From contig MHZT01000010.1 of NCBI GenBank assembly GCA_001828855.1, forward strand, positions 1 to 34,156: a stretch of 34,156 bases of DNA, in the 5' to 3' direction. A program made the position numbers and the translations under genes. Under the pieces are notes generated by a model, which searched no databases, had not been told where the DNA came from, and saw only the letters and a list, made by a program, of their open reading frames with translations. Positions 1,306-16,034 of the stretch are shown here, piece after piece; positions within the stretch are counted from its first letter, which is position 1; the number at the start of each line of letters is the position of its first letter. The DNA is from Rhodobacterales bacterium RIFCSPHIGHO2_02_FULL_62_130 (GTDB lineage Bacteria > Pseudomonadota > Alphaproteobacteria > Rhodobacterales > Rhodobacteraceae).

Positions 1306-2706
1306 TCAGCCGTGAATTGCTCCACCCCGCGCGGCGAGAACCGCTTCGTGCAGGGCTTCCGACAGGGTCGGATGTGGAAAGACCACCGCAGCCAGTTGCG
1401 CAGATGTGGCACCTAGAGTGACGGCAATTGTGAGGCCATGGATCAACTCGCTGGCCTCGGCCCCGATGATCTGCGCGCCGAGCAGACGGTCGGTTTCGGC
1501 ATCAAAGACGCATTTCGCCAGCCCGTCCGGCTCTCCCAGGACCAGCGCCTTGCCATTGCCGCGCAGCGAGAAGCGCCCCACCAGCAGCGACCGGCCTTCG
1601 GCCTTGGCGGCCTCTTCGGTCAACCCGACCGATGCGATTTGCGGGCTGGCGTAGATGCAGGCGGGGATCGGACCGCGATGGTGGCCATGCGGGATACCCG
1701 CAATCGCCTCGACACAGGCGATGCCGTCATGTTCGGCCTTATGGGCGAGCATGGGTGGGCCGGCCAGATCGCCGATGGCGTAAAGGCCCGGCACCGAGGT
1801 GCGGCCCGCAGCATCGGCCTTGACCACGCCACGGTCCAGCGCGACGCCCAGCGCCTCCAGTCCCAGCCCATCGACATTTGCCACCACACCGGCCGCCGAA
1901 AGCAGACGGTCGGCGGCAATTTCGCTGCCATCCGACAACTGCGCCGTCAGGCTGTTGTCCTGCCGGTCCAAGCCCACAACAGACACCCCAGTGCGCAGCG
2001 CAATGCCGCGCTTTTGCAGCGCCTTGGCCATCAGGCCGGCAATCTCGGCGTCTTCGGTCGGCAGGATGCGGGGGGCAAGTTCCACCACCGTCACCTGTGC
2101 GCCCAGCGCGGCATAGATCGAGGCGAACTCGATGCCGATGGCACCAGAGCCGACCACAATCAGCCGCTCCGGCACCGCCTTGGGCCGCAGCGCCTCACGG
2201 TAGGTCCAGACCAGATGGCCATCCGCCTCAAGCCCCGGCAAGGCCCGCGGGCGCGCGCCGGTGGCAAGGATGACATGATCGGCCGCGTAAAGCCCAGGCC
2301 CCTTGGCTCCGCGCGGCGCGGGGGCGGCCGTTTCGCTAACCTGCACCTGCCCCGGCTGCACCAGCCGGGCCGCGCCCCAGATCACCTCGACCCCGTTCTT
2401 CTTCAGCAAAAAGGCAATCCCGGCGGTCAACTGACCGCTGACTTCGACCGCGCGGCCCACCAGCCGTTCAGGCTCGATCCGCGGCTCCAGCGGTGCAAGG
2501 CCAAAGCGGTCAGCGTGGCGCGCGGCTTCAAGCACATCGGTGCCTTTCAACATGGCCTTGGTCGGAATGCAGCCCCAGTTCAGGCAAATGCCGCCCAGGT
2601 GATCCCGCTCGATCAGACCCACTTTCTTGCCCAATTGCGCCGCGCGGATTGCCGCCACATAGCCGCCAGGGCCCGCCCCGATGATCAGGATGTCATAGTC
2701 GCTCAT
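1306..2706 (-). CDS. lpdA: Dihydrolipoyl dehydrogenase (E3)
   Basis: This FAD-dependent enzyme reoxidises the dihydrolipoyl group of 2-oxo-acid dehydrogenase complexes and passes electrons to NAD+. It has 466 residues, the normal length. The FAD Rossmann motif GAGPGG is at residues 10-15 and the redox disulfide is C41/C46 in CLNWGCIPTK. The NAD-binding GSGAIGIEFAS lies mid-protein, YAIGDLAG is the second FAD contact, and the catalytic pair is H445/E450 in HPTLSE. The start at 2706 (MSDYDIL) has an AAGGAT site 7 bases upstream; a longer frame to 2790 adds 28 unlikely residues. It is the last gene of the operon and completes the complex encoded at its start. The final codons (RGGAIHG) use GGT GGA GCA ATT, unlike the rest of the gene. 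Confidence 0.96.
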   Translation of the reverse strand: MSDYDILIIGAGPGGYVAAIRAAQLGKKVGLIERDHLGGICLNWGCIPTKAMLKGTDVLEAARHADRFGLAPLEPRIEPERLVGRAVEVSGQLTAGIAFLLKKNGVEVIWGAARLVQPGQVQVSETAAPAPRGAKGPGLYAADHVILATGARPRALPGLEADGHLVWTYREALRPKAVPERLIVVGSGAIGIEFASIYAALGAQVTVVELAPRILPTEDAEIAGLMAKALQKRGIALRTGVSVVGLDRQDNSLTAQLSDGSEIAADRLLSAAGVVANVDGLGLEALGVALDRGVVKADAAGRTSVPGLYAIGDLAGPPMLAHKAEHDGIACVEAIAGIPHGHHRGPIPACIYASPQIASVGLTEEAAKAEGRSLLVGRFSLRGNGKALVLGEPDGLAKCVFDAETDRLLGAQIIGAEASELIHGLTIAVTLGATSAQLAAVVFPHPTLSEALHEAVLAARGGAIHG

Positions 2707-2768
2707 GTCAAAATCCTTCCATGCCGCGCCAAGGGCGCGGTCTATGTTGCGATGCGGGGAAAGGCCGG

Positions 2769-3689
2769 TCAGATCGTCGGGATGATCCAATCGGGCGTGA
2801 TGCCCGATGCCTTGATGAAGGGGGTCACGTCGCGGCCTTTGAACAGGCCATGGTCGGTGACCAGAATGGTGCCATGGCCTGCCGCCTGCCCACCCAGAAT
2901 GTCGGTGTGCAACGTGTCGCCCACCATGGCCAGCCGCCCTGCCCCGATGCGTTCGGCGGCAAGGGAGAAGGCTTCGGGAAAGGGTTTGCCGAAATAGGCG
3001 ACGGGCTGGCCAGTGCGGTCTTGCAGGTCATGCGCCCAGAAGCCGGGTTCCACCGTCAACCCGCCTTCGCGCGGGGCCACCAAGTCGGGGTTGCCCACCA
3101 GCACAGGCCGGGGCTTGCGGATCAGGGAGTGGATCAGACGCTCCTGATCGGCCTCGCTCCACCGTGCGGCGGAGAGGAAGAGGAAGCCCTCGGCGCTGTC
3201 CCAATCGGGAAATTCATCCAGATGCTGGATCGGCTCCTTGGTATCAGCGAAACGATCCTCCACCGCCGCAATCGCGCCCCAGCTGACACCCGGATAGTTC
3301 GCCGCAAGGTGGCGGAACAGCACATCGCGGCTAGAGATGATTTCCTCGGCCCGCACATCCAGCCCAAGACGGGCGTATTTGTGAAACGCGTCCGCGCTGG
3401 TGTAGCTGGCCGCATTGGTCAGGATACAAAAGGGTTTGCCGCGCTGGCGCAGGGCCAGAAGGCATTCCGCCGCACCTGCGATGGCACTGTCCCCGACATT
3501 CAGGACGCCAAAGGAATCAAAGAGATAACCGTCAAAGGCGTCAACCGTGGCCAAAAGCCCCTCGGCCTGTTGCGCCACCACGGGCGCGCTGGCCTGCGGC
3601 AGGCGCGGACGAATGTCCTCGTAGCGCGAAAAGGCGACGTCGAAAGGAATCAGCTTTTGCAGATCGGCGGCTTTGGTCATCTGGTTCAT
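2769..3689 (-). CDS. HAD-superfamily class IIA phosphatase-like protein
   Basis: This 306-residue protein of the NagD-like HAD class IIA would be expected to dephosphorylate a small phosphorylated metabolite. Motif I reads FDSFGVL, with nucleophile D58. Motif II is ILTNAA, motif III is the Lys in YFGKPFPE, and motif IV is GDTLHTD. The second Asp of motif I (D-x-D), the usual general acid/base, is Phe60. The related alphaproteobacterial group reads DxWGV here, so this is a subfamily trait rather than a lesion, but it leaves catalysis open. An AGGGGAAAG ribosome site precedes the start. Its position between an FGGY kinase and Lpd suggests removal of phosphate from an intermediate or a dead-end product of the pathway. 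Confidence 0.85.
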   Translation of the reverse strand: MNQMTKAADLQKLIPFDVAFSRYEDIRPRLPQASAPVVAQQAEGLLATVDAFDGYLFDSFGVLNVGDSAIAGAAECLLALRQRGKPFCILTNAASYTSADAFHKYARLGLDVRAEEIISSRDVLFRHLAANYPGVSWGAIAAVEDRFADTKEPIQHLDEFPDWDSAEGFLFLSAARWSEADQERLIHSLIRKPRPVLVGNPDLVAPREGGLTVEPGFWAHDLQDRTGQPVAYFGKPFPEAFSLAAERIGAGRLAMVGDTLHTDILGGQAAGHGTILVTDHGLFKGRDVTPFIKASGITPDWIIPTI

Positions 3690-3707
3690 GTCTTTCCCCT
3701 GCGGGTC

Positions 3708-5228
3708 TTAGGCAATCTCGGCCATCACCTGCCGCAAACGCTGGAAATGCTCGCGCAGCGCGGGGTAGATGTCTTTGTAAAGCCCATAAAGCTTGTCATA
3801 TTTTGCACTTTGGGCAGGCTGCGGCTCATAGGTCTTGCCGACGCCCGTCATCGCCGCAGCGGCCGCTTCGACGCTGTCGAAATGGCCCGCGCCATAGGCC
3901 GCAAGAATGCCGGCGCCAAGGCAGGTTGCCTCGGGTTCGCGCGCCACGGCCACGGGTTTGCCCAGCACATCGGCCACGATCTGGCACCACAGCGGGCTGC
4001 GCGCCCCGCCGCCCATGGCAAGGAACCGGCGGATCGGCATGTCGCTGGCGGCTTCGGCCCCGGTGGTCGACAGCCGCTGTTCCATCGCCAACCCTTCCAG
4101 AATGGCGCGGTAGACATGGGCCTTGCCATGCCGCCCGGTCAGGCCAAACAACACCCCGCGCGCCGTGCTGTCCCAATAGGGGGTCAGCACGCCGGTCAGA
4201 TAGGGGAGCGACAAAAGCCCGTCCGACCCCGAAGGCAGCGCTGCCGCCGCACTTTCAAGGATCTGTTCCGGCGCAAGGTCAAGGCCAAAGGGCCGCTCGC
4301 CAATGCCCGAGAACTGCTGTACGAACCAGTTCAGGTTATAGGTGCCGCCGCCAAAGAAGGTCTCGAAGATATAGGTGCCGGGCACACCGCCCGTCATGGT
4401 GCGAAACGACCGGTCGGTGCCATAAGTGGCGCTGAAATTGCCCGACACGATGCCGGTGCCAAGGTTAAGATAGGCCTCACCCGGTTTGGTGATGCCCACG
4501 CCAAGGCCCGCCGATTGGCCATCGCCCAGACCCGCAACCACCTTCAGGCCGCGGTTCAGGCCCAAAAGTTCCGCCACATCATCGCGCAGGATGCCCAGCA
4601 CCTCGCCCGGCGCGCAAAGCTCTGGGAACTGATCCGGACGCAGGCCGACACGGTCCACCAGATCGCGCGACAGGGTGAAATCGCGCAGGTCCACCACGCC
4701 CAACGGGTCAACACTGCCGTATGAGGTGCGCCATTCCCCGGTCAGGCGGTTGACCAGATAGGAATGCACATCGGCCACCCGGTCGGTTGCCTCGATGCAG
4801 CGGGGTTCATGCTCGGTGAGCCACGCCAGCTTATACCAGCTTGTCGCGGTGTTCGGCGGCTTGCCGGTGATCTGGTGGATGTCCTCGCTGCCAAGCCGGT
4901 TGACCTGATCGGTCGCCCGGGTGTCCAGCCACAGCATGGCCGGGCGCAGGGCGTGGCCGTCGCGGTCCAGACAGACGAAGGTTTCGCGCTGATGGGTGAT
5001 GGAAAGCGCGGCAAGCCGCGACGGGTCGATCTGGCGGCAGGCAAAGCCGATTGCAGCAACGGTGGCGTTCCACCAATCCACCGGGTCTTGCTCTCCCCAG
5101 CCGGGGTGCGGCGAGGAATGGCTATAGGCAGACCGCCCTACAGCAACGCTGGTACCATCCAGCGACCAGACCACAGCCTTGGCTGCGGTGGTTGAGCAAT
5201 CAAGGCCAAGGACAAGATCACGCTGCAC
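3708..5228 (-). CDS. FGGY-family carbohydrate kinase, xylulokinase-like
   Basis: This 506-residue kinase of the FGGY family phosphorylates a sugar, ketose or polyol with ATP. The N-terminal phosphate-binding loop is LGLDCSTTAAKAV. The substrate-side stretch is HSSPHPGWGEQDPVDWW with ITHQRETFVCLD. The catalytic Asp lies in VAGLGDGQSAGLGVG, and the C-terminal ATP-binding segment is RRFLAMGGGARSPLWCQIVADVLG. The start is GTG at 5228. Its GTG overlaps the last codons of the preceding dehydrogenase gene by 11 bases, indicating translational coupling. It resembles XylB more than GlpK, but substrate cannot be read from sequence. A second, different FGGY kinase is at 17349. Confidence 0.93.
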   Translation of the reverse strand: MQRDLVLGLDCSTTAAKAVVWSLDGTSVAVGRSAYSHSSPHPGWGEQDPVDWWNATVAAIGFACRQIDPSRLAALSITHQRETFVCLDRDGHALRPAMLWLDTRATDQVNRLGSEDIHQITGKPPNTATSWYKLAWLTEHEPRCIEATDRVADVHSYLVNRLTGEWRTSYGSVDPLGVVDLRDFTLSRDLVDRVGLRPDQFPELCAPGEVLGILRDDVAELLGLNRGLKVVAGLGDGQSAGLGVGITKPGEAYLNLGTGIVSGNFSATYGTDRSFRTMTGGVPGTYIFETFFGGGTYNLNWFVQQFSGIGERPFGLDLAPEQILESAAAALPSGSDGLLSLPYLTGVLTPYWDSTARGVLFGLTGRHGKAHVYRAILEGLAMEQRLSTTGAEAASDMPIRRFLAMGGGARSPLWCQIVADVLGKPVAVAREPEATCLGAGILAAYGAGHFDSVEAAAAAMTGVGKTYEPQPAQSAKYDKLYGLYKDIYPALREHFQRLRQVMAEIA

Positions 5229-6690
5229 GATCCACCCCCGTTGCTGCAGCCAGCACCTGATCCACCCGCGCCATGATACGCGCCACGCCTTCGGCGTCGA
5301 GCCAGCCCGCCAGATACAAAAGGTCGGCGATCGTAAAGCGTTCGCGCATGAACTGGCAATTTCCGATCACCCACCGCGTCAGGTCTTCGGACGGGGCCGG
5401 AACCAGCGCGTCAAACCGCATCGCGGAACCGGCGCGCGAGAGGTATTCGACAATCTTTGCCGTATCGAACACCAGTGCGTCATGCGCCTGACGATGCTGC
5501 GGCCAGTTGGGGAAAAATGCCTCAACGGCGGGCCAGTTCGCCTGAAGCGTGGTTAGCTTGGCGCGGTAGCGGGCCTCGCATTCGGCCCCGATCGCGCCCG
5601 AAGGGTCAAGCGCCTCAAAAGCGTCGCGCGCCGCTCTGGCCTGCGCGTCAAGATCAAAGGCGATATCCTGCGCGGTAACAGGGGTTTCCTGCATGCGGGC
5701 GCAGAACACATCCCAGGCGGCAGCGGCGATGACAGATCCCACCCCCACCTGCGCGCCATGTTGGCTCATCGGGGTGTGGGTCTGGCTTGCCACCATATCG
5801 AGCATATGGCTGAAAAGATGCTCCATCCCCGAAAGCGTGGCCGTGGTGCCGCCGGTACCGGTTACGATCCCGCGAAAGGCCAAGGCGCGGGTCAGCTTTT
5901 CGCTGTCGCCCAGATCGCCATTGGCAAGACCCCGTGACCAATCTTCAATCCCATGCCCACAGATCGCCAGCAGTTCCAGCAAGACGGGCGTGAAGGATGT
6001 ATCGACGCCCAGTTGCGCCGCAAGATACCAATCGCCCGGCGCGCAGAACATCGACATCATCTCGCCCATGCCCGCCGCCGTCATCCGGGGCGGCGCTTCG
6101 GCAATGGTGCGCACATCGGCCAGCACGGCATCGGGCCAGCGTGACAGGCTGGTCTTCTTGACACCGTTTTGCAGCACGACCGAAAAGTTGTCGGTGAACC
6201 CGTCAACCGAGGCAGCCGTCTGGATCACCACATGCACCGGCACGCCCGACCGCACCGAGGCGACCTTGGCCACATCGGTGATGGTACCACCGCCGACCGA
6301 CACAATGGCATCTGCCCCAAGCACGCCCTTTGCGGCGGCTTGCAAGATCGGCTCATCGGCGTGCAGCACATCCTGGCCGTCATCCAGTTCGACCAAGCGC
6401 ACGCGATGGGTCCGTTCCAGTGCGGCGATGACATCGGCCTTCAGGTCACGCCCGGCCCGCAAGATGCGCACCGGATCGACCACCACGCAGACAACCGCCC
6501 CCGAGGCTGGCTTGCCTGCGGCGACCAGCTGGCGCGCCAGAGCTTCCGGCAAGAGCTCCAGCACATTGTCGGCCACGATCACCTCTTTCATACCCAGCCG
6601 GGCGAATTGACCGCGCGGATCGTTGCGCTGCATGGCGGCGTCGATCCGGTTCAGGTTCGACAGATCAGCAATTGTCAGGCCAAGCGACAT
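5218..6690 (-). CDS. Iron/zinc-dependent dehydrogenase of the sn-glycerol-1-phosphate dehydrogenase (AraM/EgsA) family
   Basis: Members reduce dihydroxyacetone phosphate to sn-glycerol-1-phosphate, or catalyse the reverse, with NAD(P)H and a bound metal. This protein has 490 residues, longer than AraM of about 400, with an extra C-terminal helical part. NAD-binding SVGGGTITDVAK is at residues 131-142, followed by the ASVDGFTD substrate region. Likely metal positions are E210 in GMGEMMS, where Asp is usual, H291 in SGMEHLFSH and H311 in QHGAQVG. The Asp-to-Glu change suggests an altered site or substrate. It sits between importer genes and an FGGY kinase, which fits a catabolic role on an imported polyol or its phosphate rather than ether-lipid synthesis. 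Confidence 0.87.
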   Translation of the reverse strand: MSLGLTIADLSNLNRIDAAMQRNDPRGQFARLGMKEVIVADNVLELLPEALARQLVAAGKPASGAVVCVVVDPVRILRAGRDLKADVIAALERTHRVRLVELDDGQDVLHADEPILQAAAKGVLGADAIVSVGGGTITDVAKVASVRSGVPVHVVIQTAASVDGFTDNFSVVLQNGVKKTSLSRWPDAVLADVRTIAEAPPRMTAAGMGEMMSMFCAPGDWYLAAQLGVDTSFTPVLLELLAICGHGIEDWSRGLANGDLGDSEKLTRALAFRGIVTGTGGTTATLSGMEHLFSHMLDMVASQTHTPMSQHGAQVGVGSVIAAAAWDVFCARMQETPVTAQDIAFDLDAQARAARDAFEALDPSGAIGAECEARYRAKLTTLQANWPAVEAFFPNWPQHRQAHDALVFDTAKIVEYLSRAGSAMRFDALVPAPSEDLTRWVIGNCQFMRERFTIADLLYLAGWLDAEGVARIMARVDQVLAAATGVDRAA

Positions 6691-6735: not shown

Positions 6736-7743
6736 TCAGCGCGTTGCCGCGCGGCGATCCAGCATCACGGCGATGATGATGGCGACCCCGATCACCACCG
6801 GTTGCAGGTTGGGCGAAACGTTGATCAGCGCCATACCGTTGCGCAGCACCCCAATGATCATCAGGCCGATGAATGTGCCCATCATCCCGCCCGAACCGCC
6901 AGAAAGGCTGGCGCCGCCAATGACAACCACCGCGATGACGCTGAGAAGGTCATTGACCCCCGCCGTCGGGTGAGCGGCATCCAGACGCGAACCGACAATC
7001 AGACCGGCCAGCGCGGCGAGAAAACCTGCGGTGACATAGACCATCACCTTGGCGCGACGCGTGTTGATGCCCGACAGCCGCGCCACTTCCTCGTTCCCGC
7101 CAATCGCATAAAGCGCGCGGCCCGAGGGGCGGAAGTAAAGCCAGTAGGCGACGATCAGATAGACCACGACCAGGATCACGAATTCCAGCGGCAGCCCGAA
7201 GAAACGGGCCGAGGTGATTTCAGAAAACCACTCGGGGAAGCCTGTGACAGGGCTGCCATTGGTGATGAACAGCGCCAGACCCGAACAGGCCGACATGGTG
7301 GCAAGCGTCGCCACGAAGGGTTGGATGCGGCCGTAGGTCGACAGGATGCCATTTACCAGCCCGACAAAGGCGCCCAAGGCCAGCCCGGCCAGAGTGGAAA
7401 TGACGAAGGGCACGCCGAAATCGCGGTAGAGCCAAGCGTTCAGCATCAAAGACACCGCCAGCACCGCGCCGACCGACAGGTCGATCCCGCCGATGATGAT
7501 GACCAGCGCCGCCCCTGCCGCCATGATGCCGATTTCGGACATCTGCGAGAAGACGTTGAACAAGTTCCGCGTGGTCAGGAAATACGGGGAAAGCACCGAA
7601 AAGACGACGCTGACCAGGATCAACCCGATCAGCGGACCGGGAATATAGCGCTGAACCTTCTTCACAAAATCCATCCCTGCCTCCGTCTTGCCCTTGCCTG
7701 CGCTTGCTCCGGGGTTTGGCCCGGTCTGATCCAGAAGTGTCAC
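6736..7743 (-). CDS. Sugar ABC transporter permease, RbsC-like (importer 1)
   Basis: This is an inner-membrane permease of the BPD_transp_2/RbsC family with 335 residues and 8-10 predicted hydrophobic segments. The family signatures AALVIIIGGIDLSVGAVLA, GxNEEVARLSGI (the cytoplasmic loop that contacts the ATPase) and VVVIGGASLSGGSGGMMGT are present. The start drawn here is a GTG whose bases overlap the TGA of the ATPase gene (GTGA). An internal ATG at 7674 (MDFVKKVQR) has a GGAGG five bases upstream and may be the true or a second start, giving 312 residues. It is the only permease of this importer, so it presumably works as a homodimer. Confidence 0.94.
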   Translation of the reverse strand: MTLLDQTGPNPGASAGKGKTEAGMDFVKKVQRYIPGPLIGLILVSVVFSVLSPYFLTTRNLFNVFSQMSEIGIMAAGAALVIIIGGIDLSVGAVLAVSLMLNAWLYRDFGVPFVISTLAGLALGAFVGLVNGILSTYGRIQPFVATLATMSACSGLALFITNGSPVTGFPEWFSEITSARFFGLPLEFVILVVVYLIVAYWLYFRPSGRALYAIGGNEEVARLSGINTRRAKVMVYVTAGFLAALAGLIVGSRLDAAHPTAGVNDLLSVIAVVVIGGASLSGGSGGMMGTFIGLMIIGVLRNGMALINVSPNLQPVVIGVAIIIAVMLDRRAATR

Positions 7744-9290
7744 GCTCCGTTCCCTCCCCGTTCGATGTTTCCATTTGCCTTCGCAGCGCCGTCAGCGCCG
7801 GGAACGGCCAGCGCCATCACCTGTTCGGGCGTGGCCGCGTCGCGCGGCAGATCGCCCTGCAGGCGGCCTTCCGACATGACGAGAACCCGATGGCACAGGC
7901 CCAGAACCTCTTCGAGTTCCGACGAAATCACGATGACGCTGATCCCGCTTGCCGCCAGCCCGCGGATGATTTCGTAGATCGCCATCTTGGCGCCCACGTC
8001 GACCCCGCGCGTCGGTTCATCGACGATGAACACACGCGGGGTTTTCACCAGCCATTTGGCCAGCAGAACCTTTTGCTGATTGCCGCCCGACATGGAGTTG
8101 ACCGGCAAACCCATCTGGCCGCGAATGTCGAAACGTTCTTTCTGGCGGCTGCCCAACGCGTCGATCCTCGACGGAAACACCATCCCGGCACGCGTCAGAC
8201 TGCGCTCCCAAGGCTGGGCGATGTTGCGCGCCGCCGACTGATCCAGCGACAGGCCCAGACCCTTGCGGTCCTCGGACACCATGACGATGCCCGCCTCGAT
8301 CGCATCGCGAGGCGACGATAGACGCAGCACACGACCATCCAGCCGGATTTCACCGGCCTCGATCGGATCCGCCCCCGACAACGCCCGGCCAACTTCCGAC
8401 CTCCCCGCGCCGATCAGCCCGGCCAGCCCCAGAATTTCGCCCTGCCGCAAATCAAAGGAAATGTCGCGGAAGGCCCGGCCGCGCGACAGGCCGCGCACCT
8501 GCAACACCACGTTCTCACCCGAAGGTTCTGGCGCGCGGTGTTCAAAAGTGAACTCGCGGCCCACCATGCCGTTGATCATCTTTTCCTTCGTCACCGACGC
8601 GCCGTCCCAGTCGGCCACGCGATTGCCATCGCGGAAGCAGACAACGTGGTCGGCAATGGTCATGATTTCGTCCAACCGGTGCGACACGTAGATGATCGCG
8701 GTGCCGTTCTGTTTCAAAAGCCGGACCTGTTCAAAGATCAGCTCGGCATCCGCCTCGCCCAAAGAGGCGGTCGGTTCGTCAAAGATCACGTAGCGCGGCT
8801 TGCGCAAAAGCGCCTTGCAGATCTCGATCCCCTGCTGCACCGCCATCGACAACCCGCGCACAACGCGGTTCGGGTCGACGTTCACGCCCAGCGCCCGCAA
8901 GATCTCGCGCGACTGGCGCACCATTTCGGCGCGATCGACACGGCCTGCCCGGGTGGGCTGGCGGCCCAGAAAGATGTTTTCCGCCACGGTCAGTTCGGGC
9001 AGTAGCCGGATTTCCTGATGGATGAGTGCCACGCCGTTGTGGATCGCATCGGCGGGCGATAGCGGCACGTACGGGGCGCCATCGAGCCACATCTGGCCTT
9101 CCGAGGGTTTCACCACCCCGGCAATGATGTTGTTGAAAGTGGACTTCCCAGCCCCATTTTCACCGATCAGGGCAACGACCTGTCCCGGCAAGACCGAAAA
9201 ATCGACCGATTTCAGCACCTGAATCTGGCCATAGCTCTTGCAAAGCCCACGGCAATGCAGGCCGGTCGAGTGCGGTGCGCTATCCAACAT
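7740..9290 (-). CDS. Sugar ABC transporter ATP-binding protein, RbsA-like with two ABC domains (importer 1)
   Basis: This cytoplasmic motor of a simple-sugar importer has 516 residues from the ATG at 9290, which has AGGGGG 8 bases upstream. An ATG at 9353 would add 21 residues lacking family character. Domain 1 has Walker A GENGAGKST, the divergent signature LSMAVQQGIEICKAL and Walker B YVIFDEPTASLGEAD. Domain 2 has a degenerate Walker A GLIGAGRSE, the signature MSGGNQQKVLLAKWL and VFIVDEPTRGVDVG. This asymmetry between domains is normal for the RbsA/MglA family. It overlaps the permease by four bases and follows the binding-protein gene after a hairpin. Confidence 0.95.
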   Translation of the reverse strand: MLDSAPHSTGLHCRGLCKSYGQIQVLKSVDFSVLPGQVVALIGENGAGKSTFNNIIAGVVKPSEGQMWLDGAPYVPLSPADAIHNGVALIHQEIRLLPELTVAENIFLGRQPTRAGRVDRAEMVRQSREILRALGVNVDPNRVVRGLSMAVQQGIEICKALLRKPRYVIFDEPTASLGEADAELIFEQVRLLKQNGTAIIYVSHRLDEIMTIADHVVCFRDGNRVADWDGASVTKEKMINGMVGREFTFEHRAPEPSGENVVLQVRGLSRGRAFRDISFDLRQGEILGLAGLIGAGRSEVGRALSGADPIEAGEIRLDGRVLRLSSPRDAIEAGIVMVSEDRKGLGLSLDQSAARNIAQPWERSLTRAGMVFPSRIDALGSRQKERFDIRGQMGLPVNSMSGGNQQKVLLAKWLVKTPRVFIVDEPTRGVDVGAKMAIYEIIRGLAASGISVIVISSELEEVLGLCHRVLVMSEGRLQGDLPRDAATPEQVMALAVPGADGAAKANGNIERGGNGA

Positions 9291-9325
9291 TCTCTTTGCC
9301 CCCTGCATTGCGGTTTGCTTTGGTC

Positions 9326-9351
9326 GCGGGCCCGGCTGGTACCGGACCCGC
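9326..9351 (-). other. Intercistronic hairpin after binding-protein gene
   Basis: GCGGGTCCGG and CCGGGCCCGC pair around a 6-base loop with one mismatch, between the stop of the binding-protein gene and the ATPase gene. There is no T tract. Such hairpins in ABC operons commonly protect the 5' transcript and raise binding-protein output. A similar one is present in the second importer operon at 24110-24134. Confidence 0.6.
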
Positions 9352-9362
9352 AATAGATTGAC

Positions 9363-10337
9363 TTACTTCATGGCTTCCGCGGCCGGGCCATAGAAATCGG
9401 CCGGCGAGACGGAGCCGACATTCTCGGCGGTGACCAGAACGGTGTCTTGATACTGCAGTTCCGGCACGGTTTCGCCGTTCAGCACCTTGATCGCGTTCTC
9501 GACGCCCATCTGGCCCATCTTGTAAGGGATCTGGGCCATGGTTGCCTGGGTCAGCCCGTCCTTGATGCCGTCGAACATGGTCGGGAAGCCGTCGATGCCG
9601 ACCGAGATCAGATCGGTGCGGCCAGCCTCACGGGCAGCTTTGGCCGCGCCCAGCGACATGGCATCGCTTTCGGCAAAGACGGCGGCCAGATCGGGGTTGG
9701 CGGTCAGGATGTTCTGGGTGGCCTTGAAGGCTTCGGTCTCATCCCAGTTGGCGGTCTGTTCGGCGACAACCTTGATATCGGGATAGTTCGCCAGGGCTTC
9801 CTGACAGCCTTGGGTGCGCTGAATTTCGGCGGTGGAGCCGAGAACGCCGTGCAGAATGGCAATCTGGCCCTTTCCGCCCATCTGGTCGAACATCCAGGTG
9901 CACAGATCCCGCGCGGCCTTGACGCTGTCGGTGGCGATATAGGTGGCGAGTTCGCCTGCACCCGATTCCGGGCGCTGGTCCACGGCGATCACAGGAACAC
10001 CGGCCTTGTTCGCAGCCTTCACGCCCGCCGCCGCAGCGGTGCTGTCTTGCGAGATGAAAACCAGCGCGCCGATGTTCTGCACCAGAAGGTTGTTCACCTG
10101 ATTGACCTGCTCACGCCCGTCGTTGTTGGCGACAGCGACGGCCACTTCATAACCAGCGGCTTCGGCGGCGGCTTTCATCCCTTCCAGGGCAGCGACATAA
10201 AACAGCGATTTCTGGTCCGCGACGGCAATGCCGATCACAGGCTTTTCTTCCGCAATGGCCGAGACCGGAGCGAGGGTCATGGCGCACGCAGCGCCGAGCA
10301 GTCCACGCAATATCGCGCGCTTGGTAGCATTCATCAT
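9363..10337 (-). CDS. Periplasmic sugar-binding protein, RbsB-like (importer 1)
   Basis: This 324-residue substrate-binding protein of the Peripla_BP_4 family is exported to the periplasm. A Sec signal peptide (KRAILRGLLGAACAMTLAPVSAIA) is predicted to be cut after about residue 29 before EEKPVIGIAVAD. The mature part shows the family pattern QVNNLLVQNIGALVFISQDSTAA, VIAVDQRPESGAGELATYIATDS, GKGQIAILHG and AVFAESDAMSLGAAKAAREAG. The start follows AGGAGG by nine bases. The ligand is unknown; RbsB relatives bind ribose, xylose, allose, polyols and AI-2. It is the first gene of the importer block embedded inside the large operon, and E2 ends 71 bases upstream. Confidence 0.94.
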   Translation of the reverse strand: MMNATKRAILRGLLGAACAMTLAPVSAIAEEKPVIGIAVADQKSLFYVAALEGMKAAAEAAGYEVAVAVANNDGREQVNQVNNLLVQNIGALVFISQDSTAAAAGVKAANKAGVPVIAVDQRPESGAGELATYIATDSVKAARDLCTWMFDQMGGKGQIAILHGVLGSTAEIQRTQGCQEALANYPDIKVVAEQTANWDETEAFKATQNILTANPDLAAVFAESDAMSLGAAKAAREAGRTDLISVGIDGFPTMFDGIKDGLTQATMAQIPYKMGQMGVENAIKVLNGETVPELQYQDTVLVTAENVGSVSPADFYGPAAEAMK

Positions 10338-10408: not shown

Positions 10409-11080
10409 TCAGGTTGTGCAGCCTTCGAGGATGTCCTTCACGACGCCCAGGAAACGGGCGGCGAGTGCGCCATCGACGGCGCGATGGTCGCAGGTCAGGG
10501 AAAAGGCGCTGATCGGCCGCCATTCCGGAGCACCGTCATTCCACACCTGAATGGTGCGGGTCGATCCGACCGCCAGAATGCCCACCTGCGGCGGGTTCAG
10601 AATGGCCGTGAACTGGCGGACATCGAACATACCAAGGTTGGACACCGTGAAGGTGCCCCCCACGACCTCGGAAACCGAGATGCTGCCGGTCCGCACCTTT
10701 TCCACCAGCGCCTTGCGGCGTTCGGCGATCCCGTCCAGCGACAGGCCATCGGCCCCGTGGATCACCGGAACCGTCAATCCGCGCGGCGACGCCACCGCCA
10801 GGCCCACATTCGCCACCGCATATTCATGCACGGCGTCATCGCGAAAATGGGCGTTCATCGCCGGAAACTGGATCAGAGCCTTGGCACAGGCGGACAAGAT
10901 GATATCCGTGACCGTGACACCGGGGCGGCGCTGGCCCAGCGCATGCTGCATGTCGATATCGACAACGATGTTGAACTGCGGCGCCGACCATGCCGCAAGC
11001 ATCGCGCGCGACATGACCTTTTCGGTCTTGGTCAGGGGGCGCACGGCCACCTGCGGATCAGGGTTCAGGGTGACGGTCAT
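10409..11080 (-). CDS. Stand-alone catalytic domain of a dihydrolipoamide acyltransferase (E2)
   Basis: This 223-residue protein consists only of the 2-oxoacid_dh acyltransferase domain, which moves an acyl group from the lipoyl arm to coenzyme A. The catalytic motif DHRAVDG places the active His at H199 and Asp at D203. The fold-specific GGTFTVSNLGMFDVRQFTAILNPPQVGILAVG and VTDIILSACAKALIQFPAMNAHF are present. Normal E2 chains of 370-550 residues carry one to three lipoyl domains and a peripheral-subunit-binding domain in front; both are missing here. The start at 11080 is preceded by AAGGGG and sits 9 bases after the aldolase stop, so it is a complete gene and not a truncation. The lipoyl domain is encoded separately at 13771-14013. 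Confidence 0.93.
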   Translation of the reverse strand: MTVTLNPDPQVAVRPLTKTEKVMSRAMLAAWSAPQFNIVVDIDMQHALGQRRPGVTVTDIILSACAKALIQFPAMNAHFRDDAVHEYAVANVGLAVASPRGLTVPVIHGADGLSLDGIAERRKALVEKVRTGSISVSEVVGGTFTVSNLGMFDVRQFTAILNPPQVGILAVGSTRTIQVWNDGAPEWRPISAFSLTCDHRAVDGALAARFLGVVKDILEGCTT

Positions 11081-11089: not shown

Positions 11090-11950
11090 TTACGCCGCAA
11101 GTTCAAGGGCGGATTTGCCGATGCATCCATAGGACTTCATCTTGTCGATGGTCGCGTCGATCATACGGGTGCGGCCTTCGGCCATAGCTTCCTCCAACTG
11201 GCGGTCGCCCTTGGCCCAGATTGATTCAAACCCAGAGCGGAAGGCATGGCGCAGATCGGTGTCGGCGTTGAACTTGTGAACACCGGCGGCGCGGGCTTCA
11301 TCCACTTCGCGCTGGGTCAGACCCGAGGCGCCGTGCAGCACCAGCGGAATGCCGGTTGCCGCCTTGATGTCCTTGATGCGCTGGATGTTGATCGGCTCCA
11401 GCGGGATGCCCGGCACAACGCCATGCACGATGCCAACCGAGATCGCCAGATAATCGATACCGGTCTCGGCCACAAAGCGGCGGGCTTCTTCGACATCCGT
11501 ATAATAGTCTTCCCAGTTGACCGACTGGCCCACATCCGGAATCTTGCCCAACTCGGCCTCGACCGGAATGCCGAAGGCGTGGGCGATTTCCACGATCTTG
11601 CGGGTGGTGGCGATGTTTTCCTCAAACGGCAGATGCGCCCCGTCGTACATCACCGACTTGAAGCCCAGCTTGATGGCTTCCAGCACCTCATCCCATGACC
11701 CGTGATCCAGGTGGATCACATATTCCGCATTCGACTTTTCCGCGATGCGCTTGGTCATCTCGAAGGCGCGGCGCACGCCCATATGCGGGATGATCGCGCG
11801 ACCGACCTGCAGGAAGATCGGCGACGAGGACCGTTCGGCGGCCCATACCAGCGCTTCGGTCGTCTCTTCGTTGTGCATGTTGTAGGCCCCAACCGCATAG
11901 CCACCGCGGCGGGCGTTTTCGATCATGGACCGGGGGTTCGACTGTTGCAT
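11090..11950 (-). CDS. Class II (zinc) ketose-bisphosphate aldolase, FbaA/GatY/KbaY family
   Basis: This 286-residue enzyme would cleave a ketose phosphate into dihydroxyacetone phosphate and an aldehyde. Zinc ligands by family alignment are H83 in HLDHGS, H176 in VGIVHG and H206 in LVLHGASG. The catalytic Asp is D82, and the phosphate-binding segment is FNADTDLRHAF. The start at 11950 (MQQSNPRSMIENARRG) has GGAG 8 bases upstream; the open frame extends to 12154 but the added residues overlap glpD and lack family similarity. It lies 20 bases after the glpD-like gene, so oxidation of a phosphorylated polyol to a ketose phosphate followed by aldol cleavage is a natural reading. Confidence 0.92.
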   Translation of the reverse strand: MQQSNPRSMIENARRGGYAVGAYNMHNEETTEALVWAAERSSSPIFLQVGRAIIPHMGVRRAFEMTKRIAEKSNAEYVIHLDHGSWDEVLEAIKLGFKSVMYDGAHLPFEENIATTRKIVEIAHAFGIPVEAELGKIPDVGQSVNWEDYYTDVEEARRFVAETGIDYLAISVGIVHGVVPGIPLEPINIQRIKDIKAATGIPLVLHGASGLTQREVDEARAAGVHKFNADTDLRHAFRSGFESIWAKGDRQLEEAMAEGRTRMIDATIDKMKSYGCIGKSALELAA

Positions 11951-11970: not shown

Positions 11971-13671
11971 TCAACCGGCCTGCACGGCGGCTGTGGTTTG
12001 CGAAAGGGAAGGATTGGACGCATTGCGCGAGGGCACGGCAAAGCGGGTGATGTAGGACAGGTATCCGTCGATTTCGGTCTGCTTGCGCGCCTCCGACCAG
12101 CCAAGGCGACGCGCCAGAAGGTCGGCAGCGCTGTCCAGCACGTCCCGCCCGCATGAGCCATTCAGACCCACCATGATGCGTCGGATCAGAGCATCGGTCA
12201 GTGTGCGACAGAATTCGTGTTCAAAGGTAAAGACGAGTTCGGCACCGATCGCACCGCTATCCGGATCAAAGACCGCCAGCAGGCTTGCGTCTTCGCGGCC
12301 CAGTTCCAGAACGTCAGCCGCGCGCGACCCGTAGATCGACACCAGACGATCAATGATGGCGGAATCGACAGGAAAGCTCAGCTTCAGATCGCGGGCGAAT
12401 TGCGCGGCATCGGCAATCCGTGCACCGGGGAACAGGACCGAGCGGGTGGTGCAGGCGGGCGCCTTTTTGCCCAACATACGGAACACCAGATCGACGGTTT
12501 CTTCGGCCAGACTGCGATAGGTGGTCAGCTTGCCGCCGATGATAGACAGCAGGCCCGGATGGTGAGGCGCGTGATCGTGGATCACATGGCTGCGCGGCAC
12601 CTTCCATTCGCTTTGCGCGGGCACATAGGGCAAGGGCCGCACGCCGCTGTAGGTATAGACCACATCCGCAGGCGTCAGGTTCGCGCCGGGGATCAGCTGG
12701 TTCACCTCGCCCAGCAGATATTCCATCTCCGACGGGTCAGCCTTGGCGGTGTCGGGGTCTTCCTCGAATTTCTTGTCGGTGGTGCCGATCATATAGCGAT
12801 CCCCCCACGGGATCACCAAAACCAGACGGCCATCAGCACGGGATTCGTAATAGACCACATCCTTGGGCGCACCGGGAAAGGGGTTGACGATCAGGTGGCT
12901 GCCCTTGGCCCCGCCAATATGGCGGCGTTCATTGGCATGTCCGTCGCCCAGCACCACATCGACCCATGGGCCAGCAGCATTGATGACGATAGAGCCTTTC
13001 AGGGTATGGCGGCTGCCATCCAGCATGTCGGTAAAGTGAACGCCCGCGATGCGGCCGCCCTCACGCAGGAACCCCTCCACCTTTGACCAGGTGTAGATAT
13101 GCGCCCCATCCGCATGGGCCGCGAGGGTGATCTCGGTGCAAAGCCGTTCGGACCAGACAACCTGCCCGTCCATGAAGATCGCCGATCCACGCAGCCCATC
13201 TTTGGACATGCCCGGAAACCGTTCCAGCGTCTTGCTGCGCGACAGGATCTTGTGCGTCACCGTGCTTTTGTCGAACGACAGGATGTCATAGGCCAGCATC
13301 GCAATTCGGATCATCCAAGCGGGGCGCGCGTTATGCTTGTAAAGCGGCATCATCAGCGGGACGGGTTTGACGATATGGGGCGCAAGGCGGAAAAGGAGCT
13401 CGCGTTCCCGCAAAGACTCGCGCACCAACGCGATGTCGCCCTGCTCCAGATAACGCAGTCCGCCGTGGATCAAACGGCCAGACCAACTTGAGGTGCCGCT
13501 GCCGATGTCTTCCTTCTCGACCAGCGCCACCCGCAGCCCACGTGCTGCCGCATCCCGCGCAATACCGGCCCCGTTGCAGCCCGCACCGATGACGATCAAA
13601 TCGTAGACCGAGTCCACCGGCGTGGCGGCGGCTTTGGCATCAAGAGCGTGAACGTTTGGAACCTGTTGCAT
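11971..13671 (-). CDS. glpD: FAD-dependent glycerol-3-phosphate dehydrogenase family protein (GlpD-like)
   Basis: This 566-residue membrane-associated flavoprotein oxidises a polyol phosphate and feeds electrons to quinone. The FAD motif is VIGAGCNGAGIARDAAARG, followed by the GlpD signature SGRLIHGGLRYLEQGD and the downstream signature IGGKLTTYRSLAEE. The C-terminal region is DAO_C-like (LVFTFEHEFCRTLTDALIRR). Classical GlpD is about 500 residues; the extra length is mainly at both ends. The same family includes erythritol-4-phosphate dehydrogenase EryB, so the substrate need not be glycerol-3-phosphate. Its place beside an aldolase and FGGY kinases favours a larger polyol phosphate or a specialised GlpD. 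A 100-base gap with hairpins separates it from the lipoyl gene. Confidence 0.92.
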   Translation of the reverse strand: MQQVPNVHALDAKAAATPVDSVYDLIVIGAGCNGAGIARDAAARGLRVALVEKEDIGSGTSSWSGRLIHGGLRYLEQGDIALVRESLRERELLFRLAPHIVKPVPLMMPLYKHNARPAWMIRIAMLAYDILSFDKSTVTHKILSRSKTLERFPGMSKDGLRGSAIFMDGQVVWSERLCTEITLAAHADGAHIYTWSKVEGFLREGGRIAGVHFTDMLDGSRHTLKGSIVINAAGPWVDVVLGDGHANERRHIGGAKGSHLIVNPFPGAPKDVVYYESRADGRLVLVIPWGDRYMIGTTDKKFEEDPDTAKADPSEMEYLLGEVNQLIPGANLTPADVVYTYSGVRPLPYVPAQSEWKVPRSHVIHDHAPHHPGLLSIIGGKLTTYRSLAEETVDLVFRMLGKKAPACTTRSVLFPGARIADAAQFARDLKLSFPVDSAIIDRLVSIYGSRAADVLELGREDASLLAVFDPDSGAIGAELVFTFEHEFCRTLTDALIRRIMVGLNGSCGRDVLDSAADLLARRLGWSEARKQTEIDGYLSYITRFAVPSRNASNPSLSQTTAAVQAG

Positions 13672-13710
13672 GATAGCCTTCGTCTTGTCGCGAAAGTGTT
13701 GGAATTCTGG

Positions 13711-13767
13711 TCCCGGGGTCAGCGAGGGAGCGCGCCAGCCCCGGGAAAGCCCCTTACGAAAAGGGGG
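13711..13767 (-). other. Paired hairpins between lipoyl-domain gene and glpD
   Basis: An 8-bp perfect stem TCCCGGGG/CCCCGGGA (13711-13718 with 13739-13746, 20-base loop) is followed by a 6-bp CCCCTT/AAGGGG stem (13750-13755 with 13761-13766). No T run follows on the minus strand. They could attenuate or process the long transcript after the first three genes of the operon. Confidence 0.5.
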
Positions 13768-13770
13768 TAA

Positions 13771-14013
13771 TCAGGCGTCGGTTTCGATGTAGGCGATGAT
13801 ATCGCGGCACTTGGCCTCGGTGCCTTCGGGCACCAGAATTTCGACCAGAATGCCTGAGGCGGGGGATTCAAGTTCCTGCGTCGCCTTTTCGGCTTCGATC
13901 TCGGCCAAAGGCTCATCTTCCTCAATCCGCTCACCGACTTTTTTCAGCCAGCTGGTGATGGTGCCTTCGCTCATACCCATGCCCCACTGGGGCAACAGAA
14001 CTTCAACTTTCAT
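13771..14013 (-). CDS. Stand-alone lipoyl-domain (biotinyl/lipoyl attachment) carrier protein
   Basis: This 80-residue protein is a single lipoyl domain. The lipoylated lysine is K43 in EIEAEKATQEL, where family E2s usually read ETDKA. The hallmark first strand and loop LLPQWGMGMSEGTITSWLKKVGE and the closing ESPASGILVEILVPEGTEAKCRDIIAYIE are complete. The gene starts with AGGAGA seven bases before its ATG and ends at a proper stop, with no acyltransferase domain attached. It lies directly after E1 beta, so it most likely carries the acyl group from E1 to the free E2 domain at 10409. Lipoyl synthase, the enzyme that would modify it, is encoded nearby at 18829. Confidence 0.95.
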   Translation of the reverse strand: MKVEVLLPQWGMGMSEGTITSWLKKVGERIEEDEPLAEIEAEKATQELESPASGILVEILVPEGTEAKCRDIIAYIETDA

Positions 14014-14034
14014 GGGAATTCTCCTGTCTGCGGT

Positions 14035-15033
14035 TCAGTGGCCGCGAACCTTGCGGATCGCGTCGATGATCTTTTCCTTGGTGGGATACATGTGCCGCTC
14101 CAGCGCCGGGCTGAACGGGATCTGCATGTTCAGCGCCGTTACGCGGATGATCGGCGCCTTGAGGTAGGGCTGGGCTTTTTCCGCCACGATGGCCGATATT
14201 TCGGCAGCCGCGCCGCAGGTGCGGTGGGCAGGTTCTGCGATGACCAGACGACCGGTTTTCTTGACGGACTCAATGATCGAGGCGCTGTCCAAAGGCACCA
14301 GCGTGCGCGGGTCGATCACCTCGCAGGAGACACCCTCCTCGGCCATTGCGTCTGCCGCCTGCAGTGCCAGCGGCAGGGAGCCGGAGATGCCCACCACCGT
14401 CACATCGCTGCCTTCACGGCGGATGCGCGCCTTGCCGAAGGGCACCCAGTATTCTTCGTCCGGCACTTCTTCCTTCTGGCCCCACAAGGGAACCGCCTCG
14501 AAGATCAGAACTGGATCGTCGCTGTCCACCGCCGAGCGCATCAGCCCCTTGGCATCCGAGGCCGAGGCCGGGGCCAGAATTTTAAGGCCCGGAATAGTCA
14601 TGAACATCGAATAGGGGCGGTCCGAATGGTGCGCGCCGGTGTTCAGCCCGTAGAACATGGCCGAGCGGAACACGACCGGGATCGAGCTTTGGCCGCCGAA
14701 CATGTAGCGGTTCTTGGCCGCCTGGTTCACGAACTGGTCCATCGCCATGTAAAGGAAGCTGGAATAGGACAGATCCACGATGGGGCGCAGGCCGGTCATG
14801 GCCGCACCAATGGCAGCCCCCACCATCGCCTCTTCGGAAATCGGCGTGTTGCGGATGCGCATTTTGCCAAACTGCTCGACAAAATCACCCGACTCTGCAC
14901 GCTGCTTGCTTTCGCCGGTGGTGCCGTAGACGTTCGCCTCGACATCCTCGCCGATAATGATCACGCGCTTGTCGGCCTGCATGGCCTCACGCTGGGCGGC
15001 ACCGATGGCACCGATATAGGTCATGACGCTCAA
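14035..15033 (-). CDS. Thiamine-diphosphate-dependent dehydrogenase E1 component, beta subunit (AcoB/PdhB-like)
   Basis: This is the beta chain of a heterotetrameric E1 that decarboxylates a 2-oxo acid or cleaves an acyloin and reductively acylates a lipoyl arm. It has about 330 residues, with the transketolase pyrimidine-binding domain (IIIGEDVEANVYGTTGES, NTPISEEAMVGAAIGAAMTGLRPIVDL, FLYMAMDQFVNQAAK) and the transketolase C domain (VTVVGISGSLPLALQAADAMAEEGVSCEVIDPRTLVPLD). The drawn start is a TTG with GGAGG seven bases upstream that overlaps the E1 alpha stop; the ATG three codons later (15024) is the alternative. Sequence style is closer to acetoin dehydrogenase than to housekeeping pyruvate dehydrogenase. 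Confidence 0.93.
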   Translation of the reverse strand: MSVMTYIGAIGAAQREAMQADKRVIIIGEDVEANVYGTTGESKQRAESGDFVEQFGKMRIRNTPISEEAMVGAAIGAAMTGLRPIVDLSYSSFLYMAMDQFVNQAAKNRYMFGGQSSIPVVFRSAMFYGLNTGAHHSDRPYSMFMTIPGLKILAPASASDAKGLMRSAVDSDDPVLIFEAVPLWGQKEEVPDEEYWVPFGKARIRREGSDVTVVGISGSLPLALQAADAMAEEGVSCEVIDPRTLVPLDSASIIESVKKTGRLVIAEPAHRTCGAAAEISAIVAEKAQPYLKAPIIRVTALNMQIPFSPALERHMYPTKEKIIDAIRKVRGH

Positions 15034-16034
15034 AGCACGTCCTCCAGTTCGTATTTGTCGCTGTAGAGATCCTGGAAGGCGACGCTGGCATCAGGATCAG
15101 GGCTTTCGATGGCAAAGGTCGCGCAGTCTTCAACCTCTTGCGCGATGGCCGCTTCCAGCGCGTCCATCTCGTCGGGCGTCGCGCGCTTCATATCGACCAG
15201 ATATTCGCGGAACATCTTGATAGGATCACGTGACAGCCACAGCTCCCGCTCGGCCTGATCGCGGTAATCGATGTTGATCCGCAAGCCTTCGGAATGTTCG
15301 CGGAAGCGGTAGGTCATCACCTCGATCAGCGTCGGGCCTTCACCGCGACGGCCACGGGCCACGGCCTCGGACACTGCCTCATAGACGTCCAACACCTCTT
15401 GACCGTTCTCGACGCGCACGCCCGGCATGCCGAAACCGGCGGCCCGGTCCACGATGCGCCCGCCGGTCACGGTATGGGCAGGGGTGGACAGCGCGTAATG
15501 GTTGTTTTCGCACAGGAAGATGACCGGCAGCTTCCACGCCGAGGCAAGGTTCATCGATTCATACAGCACGCCCTGATTGGCCGCGCCGTCGCCGAAAAAG
15601 CACATCGCCACGCGGTCTTCGCCCAGCACCTGCGCCGAAAGGCCCGCACCTGCCGCAATCGGAATGGACGACCCGGTGATGCCAGACTCCCCAAGGCTGC
15701 CCACGGCGTAATCGGCTAAATGCAACGAGCCGCCCTTGCCTTTGCACACGCCCGTCGCCTTGCCGACAAGCTCAGCCATCAGCGGCCCGAGGGGCGAGCC
15801 CATGCCAATCGGGTGGCCGTGGCTGCGATGGTTTCCGGTCATGTGATCACCGGGGCGCAGCGCCATGCAGGCACCCACAACCTGGGCTTCCTGCCCGATG
15901 CTCGTATGCACCGTTCCAGGGATGTAGCCGCGCTTCACCATCTTGGAGGCGCGTTCGTCGAAAAGGCGGATGCGCAACATGCGACGCTGCATTTCAAGCA
16001 GGGTTTCCGTCGGGAGATTGGGGCGCGATGTCAT
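15030..16034 (-). CDS. Thiamine-diphosphate-dependent dehydrogenase E1 component, alpha subunit (AcoA/PdhA-like)
   Basis: This 334-residue E1 alpha subunit has the thiamine diphosphate and magnesium motif CFFGDGAANQGVLYESMNLASAWKLPVIFLCENN. It also shows the family N-terminus LEMQRRMLRIRLFDERASKMVKRG and the active-site loop around HLADYAVGSLGESGITGSSIPIA and YRFREHSEG. The start at 16034 (MTSRPNLP) has GGAG five bases upstream; the open frame extends further but crosses the promoter region. It is the first gene of the thirteen-gene operon and has a SorC-type operator 22 bases upstream. Pairing with E1 beta is by a four-base overlap. The acceptor could be a 2-oxo acid or an acyloin derived from the sugar. 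Confidence 0.94.
   Translation of the reverse strand: MTSRPNLPTETLLEMQRRMLRIRLFDERASKMVKRGYIPGTVHTSIGQEAQVVGACMALRPGDHMTGNHRSHGHPIGMGSPLGPLMAELVGKATGVCKGKGGSLHLADYAVGSLGESGITGSSIPIAAGAGLSAQVLGEDRVAMCFFGDGAANQGVLYESMNLASAWKLPVIFLCENNHYALSTPAHTVTGGRIVDRAAGFGMPGVRVENGQEVLDVYEAVSEAVARGRRGEGPTLIEVMTYRFREHSEGLRINIDYRDQAERELWLSRDPIKMFREYLVDMKRATPDEMDALEAAIAQEVEDCATFAIESPDPDASVAFQDLYSDKYELEDVL

Follow-up and report, generated by a model that had tools for sequence, protein, structure and literature searches.

The operon and its divergent genes

The window, by which we mean the whole stretch of 34,156 nucleotides, is an entire contig (C10) of the 4.97 Mb draft genome of Rhodobacterales bacterium RIFCSPHIGHO2_02_FULL_62_130. 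It carries an operon of 13 genes on the minus strand, from 16034 to 1306, whose neighbours overlap by a few bases or lie no more than 99 bases apart; in it the parts of a dehydrogenase complex (E1, a split E2 and E3) stand among sugar- and polyol-type genes. An earlier sequence-only reading of this DNA had listed thirteen same-strand genes with short gaps or overlaps; all are present, and the names given to them agree with the Pfam and NCBIfam scans of all 13 proteins, from which the identities below are taken. The conserved unit extends further, onto the plus strand as far as 19773, through three genes absent from that reading (SorC, FGGY2 and LipA). LipA, encoded in this divergent operon, bears directly on the lipoyl protein.

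15030..16034, minus: E1 alpha, thiamine diphosphate (ThDP)-dependent, probably acetoin-dehydrogenase-like, motif HRSHGHP (PF00676, E1_dh; tree and motif)
14035..15033, minus: E1 beta, motif HSDRP (PF02779, Transket_pyr; PF02780, Transketolase_C)
13771..14013, minus: free lipoyl-domain protein (Lip), 80 residues, lipoylation lysine K43 (PF00364; alignment of 13 rows)
11971..13671, minus: GlpD-like flavin adenine dinucleotide (FAD) polyol-phosphate dehydrogenase (PF01266, DAO; PF16901, DAO_C; NF008899 above cut-off)
11090..11950, minus: class II (FBA/TBPA-type) aldolase (PF01116, F_bP_aldolase)
10409..11080, minus: free E2 catalytic (acyltransferase) domain, 223 residues, motif DHRAVDG (PF00198, 2-oxoacid_dh, only; alignment; tree)
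9363..10337, minus: RbsB-like sugar-binding protein (PF13407, Peripla_BP_4)
7740..9353, minus: RbsA-like ATP-binding cassette (ABC) ATPase, start uncertain, 7740-9290 scanned (PF00005, ABC_tran, two stretches)
6736..7743, minus: RbsC-like permease (PF02653, BPD_transp_2)
5218..6690, minus: G1PDH/AraM-like NAD(P) dehydrogenase, 490 residues (PF13685, Fe-ADH_2; NF002022 below cut-off)
3708..5228, minus: FGGY carbohydrate kinase 1 (FGGY1), XylB-like below cut-off (Pfam and NCBIfam)
2769..3689, minus: HAD-IIA phosphatase (TIGR01460 above cut-off)
1306..2709, minus: E3, dihydrolipoyl dehydrogenase (TIGR01350, 522.5 bits against a cut-off of 408.8)
16251..17261, plus: SorC/DeoR-type sugar-binding regulator, divergent (PF04198)
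17316..18806, plus: FGGY kinase 2 (FGGY2; PF00370, PF02782)
18736..19773, plus: LipA, lipoyl synthase, start uncertain, first ATG of the frame at 18829 (TIGR00510, 365.9 bits against a cut-off of 310.25)

The most likely start positions are 2709 for E3 and 16034 for E1 alpha. The aldolase passes just the broad subfamily model TIGR00167, and the matches of the HAD-IIA enzyme to phosphoglycolate-phosphatase models are weak and below cut-off.

A split E2

The Lip and E2 genes each have their own start and stop and a purine-rich stretch upstream, as the sequence-only reading had described. The leading Pfam match of Lip is Biotin_lipoyl (68 bits), followed by weak matches to GCV_H (26 bits) and QRPTase_N. 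The sole Pfam match of the free E2 is 2-oxoacid_dh (207 bits), and it is the one PF00198 match in the whole window. The peripheral-subunit-binding domain (E3_binding, PF02817), said earlier to be missing from both pieces, matches none of the 13 operon proteins in the Pfam scan. As a control, the same domain was detected in four of four one-chain E2s, including the pyruvate dehydrogenase (PDH) E2, the 2-oxoglutarate dehydrogenase (OGDH) E2 and the AcoC of this genome, whose labels come from NCBIfam models passed above cut-off. Those last three are the only places with E3_binding in the whole genome, with 0 in the window. A binding domain or full-length E2 in the operon would have spoken against a split; both were looked for and none lies within the window. 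The chain that joins lipoyl, binding and catalytic domains in 2-oxo acid dehydrogenases is here in separate pieces.

Both pieces keep their active residues. The lipoyl lysine K43 is invariant in 13 of 13 aligned free lipoyl rows, and the catalytic H199 and D203, within the DHRxxDG motif, are invariant in all eight free E2 rows. In a set of 22 E2 rows, the catalytic match is preceded by at most 40 open residues in the 8 free E2s and by at least 197 in the 14 others. The free E2s of seven loci form one clade (support 97/99) apart from the 14 longer E2s. The ratio of nonsynonymous to synonymous substitution rates (dN/dS) against three relatives is 0.05-0.14 for Lip and 0.17-0.27 for E2, which indicates purifying selection on both. 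A free-E2 query in 40 relatives gave matches of just 28-43% identity, in frames of 241-777 residues, the shortest of which were not examined.

Conservation of the gene company

Eight sugar-type loci were mapped, and gene counts apply within the stretches read. They are the window; Gemmobacter lanyuensis (L014, L043, L044); a plasmid of Shinella sp. WSC3-e (L016); genomes G1129 (L063), G1032 (L059, L060), G1082 (L061, L062) and G622 (L030); and a plasmid of Rubrobacter indicoceani (L022, L023). E1 alpha, E1 beta, Lip and the aldolase occur together in all eight, across Alphaproteobacteria and Rubrobacter. A GlpD-like gene is also found in 8/8 (the G622 copy is just 32% identical), the G1PDH-like gene and FGGY1 in seven each, HAD and the free E2 in six each, and RbsBAC in five; G1082 is without RbsBAC, and Rubrobacter and G622 have other importers. 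The order E1 alpha, E1 beta, Lip, GlpD, aldolase, E2 is identical in six loci. Co-occurrence had been proposed as the check on whether these genes are chance neighbours, and the eight loci support the view that the dehydrogenase and sugar genes belong together.

The aldolase used alone as a query points the same way. Five of 394 family genomes (own included) pass an E value of 1e-85, at 67-100% identity, and E1 alpha, E1 beta and Lip adjoin the aldolase in all five. The aldolase also matches 404 records of the plasmid collection, with a gap below two Shinella records (83%) and Rubrobacter (57%): the remaining 22 of the best 25 are at most 38% identical. E1 alpha at E values up to 1e-120 is found in 1/385 class genomes and 2/248 family genomes (own included), and at up to 1e-100 in 1/398 phylum genomes, namely the own genome. 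The genus of G. lanyuensis has the locus in one of 11 genomes (1e-90), and of the two loci that a free-E2 search of genome contigs returned, one (L014) belongs to the system described here. The locus is uncommon and scattered, and is found in both Alphaproteobacteria and Actinomycetota. Horizontal transfer would be the simplest account of this distribution.

The same counts bear on how the split parts work together. In one alternative, Lip, E2 and E1 would form a tight, non-covalent complex of conventional style, the split being a gene fission of little mechanistic consequence. Every catalytic part of a normal complex is present, and E2 retains its acyltransferase core and active site. On the other hand, no binding domain or linker is left, and E2 is less tightly kept than Lip (six loci against eight, with a higher dN/dS), although both observations are still compatible with non-covalent assembly. 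We regard this alternative as somewhat unlikely, and the strongest of those considered.

Absence of the free E2 from two of the eight loci makes E1, the free lipoyl protein and the aldolase the tighter core. A second alternative starts there: E1 with Lip would be the real unit and the free E2 an optional acceptor, replaced elsewhere by a housekeeping E2 or some other acceptor. E1 alpha, E1 beta and Lip occur without an adjacent E2 in the Rubrobacter plasmid, in G622 and in three sphingomonad loci, but six of the eight loci and an Arthrobacter plasmid keep a free E2 of one clade. This alternative ranks slightly below the first and is, in our estimate, rather unlikely.

The type of E1

A concatenated E1 tree of 18 rows was rooted on the PDH of the own genome; it does not include G1032, G1082, G1129 or Arthrobacter. 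The window E1 lies in a clade of five sugar-locus rows (100/100) inside a clade of nine (100/100), which also holds two Novosphingobium rows, one Sphingobium and one Mesorhizobium. A free lipoyl gene is present at eight of the nine E1 loci; Mesorhizobium is the exception, with no lipoyl match found beside E1. All nine rows have HRSHGHP in E1 alpha and H(S/A)DRP in E1 beta. The corresponding E1 alpha motif is HRGHGH in the AcoA of the own genome and in Rhodococcus sp. PD04, YRDHGH in the own PDH and YRAHG in human PDH, so that the window protein has HR-x-HGH in place of the YR-x-HG of the PDH type. E1 alpha is 49% identical to the own AcoA (residues 12-280) and 40% to the own PDH. The AcoA label is backed by the own AcoC, which passes the acetoin model of NCBIfam; these genes belong to a separate acetoin-type complex of the genome (L041:1755-5026), whose AcoC has alpha/beta-hydrolase, lipoyl and binding domains.

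Judged by its motifs, with few labelled references for comparison, E1 is more likely of the acetoin type, with an acyloin, ketose or aldehyde as its substrate, than an enzyme for a 2-oxo acid. With an E1 of that type the route to acyl-CoA need not involve decarboxylation, and no dehydratase or acid-forming step was found among the operon genes scanned.

An ordinary PDH, or other 2-oxo acid dehydrogenase, that is merely co-regulated with a sugar operon has to be weighed against this. The nearest NCBIfam models to E1 alpha and beta are PDH models, both below cut-off, and E2 carries SNLGMF, which we take to be a motif of acetyltransferases. However, the genome already has PDH, OGDH and AcoC-type complexes, and the window E1 groups away from the own PDH and has the HR and HSDRP motifs. 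We consider an ordinary PDH improbable.

Lipoylation genes in the locus

LipA stands beside FGGY2 in five of the eight loci, and with an LplA-like ligase in G622 a lipoylation gene is present in six. Whole-genome LipA counts are two each in the window genome (G000), G1032 and G1082, three in G992 and one in G622; four of six operon-bearing genomes have more than one. The window genome, G1032, G1082 and G992 combine a lipoylation enzyme in the cluster with at least one further copy elsewhere. LipA copies of Shinella outside the locus are not in the count. The LplA-like gene of G622 adjoins the aldolase, 0.7 kb before the contig ends, and a second member of its family lies elsewhere in that genome.

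Sulfur oxidation offers a known example of free lipoyl proteins served by dedicated ligases, LbpA (PMC6067878, PMC10332631), and single-domain lipoyl proteins are mentioned as a class in archaea (PMC3904984). The excerpts of these three papers available to us describe no split E2 beside an E1.

Comparison with known systems

The acetoin dehydrogenase system AcoABCL resembles the window in its heterodimeric E1 of the same broad group, the HR-x-HGH motif and the lipoyl, E2 and E3 roles, but its E2 is one chain; the own AcoC joins its lipoyl and binding domains to an alpha/beta-hydrolase domain. In the acetoin locus of Rhodococcus sp. PD04 a single gene encodes an E2 of about 518 residues, next to genes for acetoin reductase and butanediol dehydrogenase; the annotation of that stretch lists no aldolase, GlpD or sugar kinase. 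No acetoin or butanediol enzymes were found among the window genes scanned. PDH and OGDH share with the window the division of labour between E1, lipoyl domain, E2 and E3, the PF00198 catalytic family and the E2 His and Asp of the DHRxxDG motif, whereas here E2 is split, the PF02817 domain is absent and the E1 motif has HR, not YR.

Among free carriers, the LbpA of the sHdr system is likewise lipoylated and free-standing, its cluster includes lipoylation genes, and the window shares with it a stand-alone lipoyl protein with a conserved lysine. As far as the available parts of the two papers go, LbpA is GcvH-like and serves sulfur oxidation (PMC6067878, PMC10332631), while the window carrier is of the E2-lipoyl type and stands beside E1 and E2. 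No GcvH-like protein with hdr-like genes was found among the window genes scanned. The H protein of glycine cleavage is also a natural free lipoyl carrier between enzymes, but its partner enzymes differ and Lip matches Biotin_lipoyl best.

On the sugar side, three rhizobial clusters (L049, L050, L051) have the same module of SorC, FGGY, G1PDH, HAD and GlpD together with an ABC importer and an aldolase. They differ in having HAD-IIB and a bifunctional aldolase/short-chain dehydrogenase (SDR), and no E1, lipoyl protein or E2 is annotated in the stretches read. The window also has the FGGY kinase, GlpD-like dehydrogenase and SorC regulator that we take to mark erythritol-type polyol pathways (EryA/EryB). 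EryC/RpiB-type isomerases, which we also count among the marks of such pathways, were not found among the window genes scanned. Plasmids of Rubrobacter carry related modules with dihydroxyacetone-kinase-type and RpiB genes.

Proposed pathway and substrate

From the gene content, domains, conservation and family-level active sites found above we infer the reactions, the substrate and the untethered working of the carrier. With a probability of roughly 0.6, the locus serves polyol or sugar catabolism by means of a split acetoin-type dehydrogenase whose lipoyl carrier is a free protein. RbsBAC would import a small polyhydroxylated compound, which an FGGY kinase would phosphorylate. The GlpD-like flavoenzyme or the G1PDH-like NAD enzyme would then oxidise the carbinol next to the phosphate (C2 oxidation), and the class II aldolase would cleave the ketose phosphate, giving an aldehyde and a fragment of the dihydroxyacetone phosphate type. 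Phosphorylation, C2 oxidation and aldol cleavage make up a well-known scheme. ThDP on E1 would react with a carbonyl from this route (not a 2-oxo acid but an acyloin, ketose or aldehyde), and E1 would acylate K43 of the free lipoyl protein. The stand-alone E2 domain (H199/D203) would transfer the acyl group to CoA, E3 would reoxidise the lipoyl group, and LipA, encoded with kinase 2, would complete the lipoyl group on the carrier.

We think that the fragment remaining after, or cleaved alongside, the aldol step would become acyl-CoA, because E1, Lip, E2 and E3 stand where the rhizobial clusters have a dehydrogenase domain. The earlier proposal of a catabolic pathway to acyl-CoA is thus kept in that the dehydrogenase and sugar genes belong together, and changed in that its E1 becomes one of the acetoin type. 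Enzymes of the GlpD and G1PDH families oxidise glycerol phosphates of opposite handedness, so both enantiomeric forms of a polyol may be used by the locus. A fuller version, in which a carbon-conserving route without CO2 release combines the acetoin-type E1, a diffusible separate carrier, a self-standing E2 and cofactor installation in the locus, is more tentative, and we would give it less than even odds. Ribose is an unlikely substrate. By eye in the alignment, the binding protein keeps some of the positions that we take to be ribose contacts in RbsB (D89, R141, D215, Q235) and loses others (N13, R90, N190). Searches of the open-licence literature turned up no account of this gene combination; most subscription journals are outside that coverage.

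Several observations weigh against the proposed pathway. On the substrate side, the G1PDH-like, FGGY and aldolase proteins reach no NCBIfam equivalog above cut-off. The nine-row E1 clade has acetoin-type rows around it (87/93) yet falls in none of the labelled groups, and the labelled reference rows behind the acetoin-type assignment are few. Only two of the eight loci, those of the window and of G. lanyuensis, include E3. E2 is missing from the Rubrobacter plasmid, and G622 has none beside its sugar-type E1, the nearest being the full-length E2 of a second complex 12 kb off; in such loci another E2 may serve, or E2 may be dispensable or replaceable. The whole G1129 genome, where the operon contig ends at FGGY2, gave no LipA match, and the Rubrobacter plasmid matched neither LipA nor two LplA-like queries. 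Prediction of the free E2 structure with AlphaFold, on an alignment of three rows, gave a mean predicted local distance difference test (pLDDT) score of 38.2, and the model was discarded.

The covalent swinging arm on E2 is the textbook account of acyl channelling in these complexes. A natural and conserved split version would make the need for tethering directly testable. The E1, the 80-residue carrier, the 223-residue acyltransferase and the lipoyl synthase would also be modular parts for engineering acyl-CoA from sugars, and the locus would reveal an undescribed polyol pathway in Alphaproteobacteria and Actinomycetota.

A more specific substrate, a branched or deoxy polyol such as a 2-methyltetrol, can be drawn from the same genes and their neighbours. 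Oxidation and retro-aldol cleavage would give formaldehyde and a 1-deoxy-tetrulose phosphate, from which E1 would form acetyl-CoA and glycolaldehyde phosphate, with HAD acting next. This would employ the two oppositely handed oxidases, the two kinases and the HAD-IIA enzyme with its weak phosphoglycolate-phosphatase matches, and also two genes of the conserved block described below, one epoxide-hydrolase-like and one for lumazine synthase, an enzyme that uses 3,4-dihydroxy-2-butanone phosphate. However, a flavin mononucleotide (FMN) riboswitch ahead of the lumazine synthase makes riboflavin supply the simpler role, G. lanyuensis has no lumazine synthase at that place and searches of the open-licence literature brought up nothing relevant; we rate this route as very improbable. 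Chance neighbours, or an assembly or frameshift artefact, have nothing in their favour beyond the draft state of the assembly and are extremely unlikely, being contradicted by the same split and order in independent assemblies, by the GlpD and aldolase genes lying between Lip and E2 and by purifying selection.

Related and independent split systems

The last genes on the linear plasmid record of Arthrobacter sp. FW306-07-I are a free E2 (46.5% identity), an E3 and a GlpD-like gene. Its other end opens with a cut aldolase, followed by an E1 alpha/beta fusion, an 85-residue free lipoyl protein, an FGGY kinase, a regulator of the SorC type, an importer and another FGGY kinase. The two ends would be adjacent in the plasmid.

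L067:758-3104: fused E1 and free lipoyl protein
L017:2202-4317: E3 and free E2

The Arthrobacter E1 is of another kind (39-41% identity, motif THRPHGH), and its free E2 joins the other six in their clade (97/99). Similar functional company therefore occurs with two different E1s.

Plasmid p2 of Gemmobacter fulvus (L020:7668-13642) carries a second split system, E1 alpha, E1 beta, Lip and E2 with an LplA-like gene immediately after them, next to a GMC oxidoreductase; its E1 and E2 are on long branches outside the clades of the window. Three sphingomonad plasmid loci (L024:9971-14654, L025:10001-14268, L047:9976-12237) have E1 alpha, E1 beta and a free lipoyl protein. No E2 was found in the stretches read, and one of the plasmids has an E2 match about 43 kb off. 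A pyrroloquinoline quinone (PQQ)-dependent alcohol dehydrogenase is downstream in two of the three. A Rhodococcus pseudokoreensis plasmid (L018:11300-15054) has unannotated matches to E1 alpha, E1 beta, lipoyl domain and E2, the last in two pieces, by nitrate reductase genes; no aldolase, GlpD or kinase match was found in that stretch. The Rhodospirillaceae locus L015 was ruled out as the same system, having lipoyl domain and E2 in one frame and an E1 that groups with acetoin-type rows, and matches in Natrinema and Streptomyces were rejected for their other gene neighbourhoods.

Flanking region

Beyond LipA, the features found are as follows.

19823..20434 as listed, likely start about 20272, minus: RibH2-type lumazine synthase (NF009084 above cut-off)
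20341..20471, minus: FMN riboswitch ahead of the likely RibH start (RF00050, 110.7 bits)
20563..25278, minus: second sugar-type ABC importer, PermA, ATPA, PermB and SBP2 (family scan)
25305..26546, minus: alpha/beta hydrolase with epoxide-hydrolase N-terminal domain (PF06441)
26650..28125, minus: beta-Ala-His-type dipeptidase, M20 (TIGR01893 above cut-off)

The RibH2-type gene is one of three lumazine-synthase-family genes in the genome. RibH copies also adjoin LipA in G1032 and G1082, and the window copy is on the opposite strand relative to these. A role of lumazine synthase in the pathway is doubtful, and its FMN riboswitch led us to drop the idea of a riboflavin-related pathway. The block from 20563 to 28125 (importer, epoxide-hydrolase-like gene and dipeptidase) recurs at 67-94% identity in three other loci. 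At its edge lies a tRNA-Ser (CGA) gene, 28031-28114, a possible integration site.

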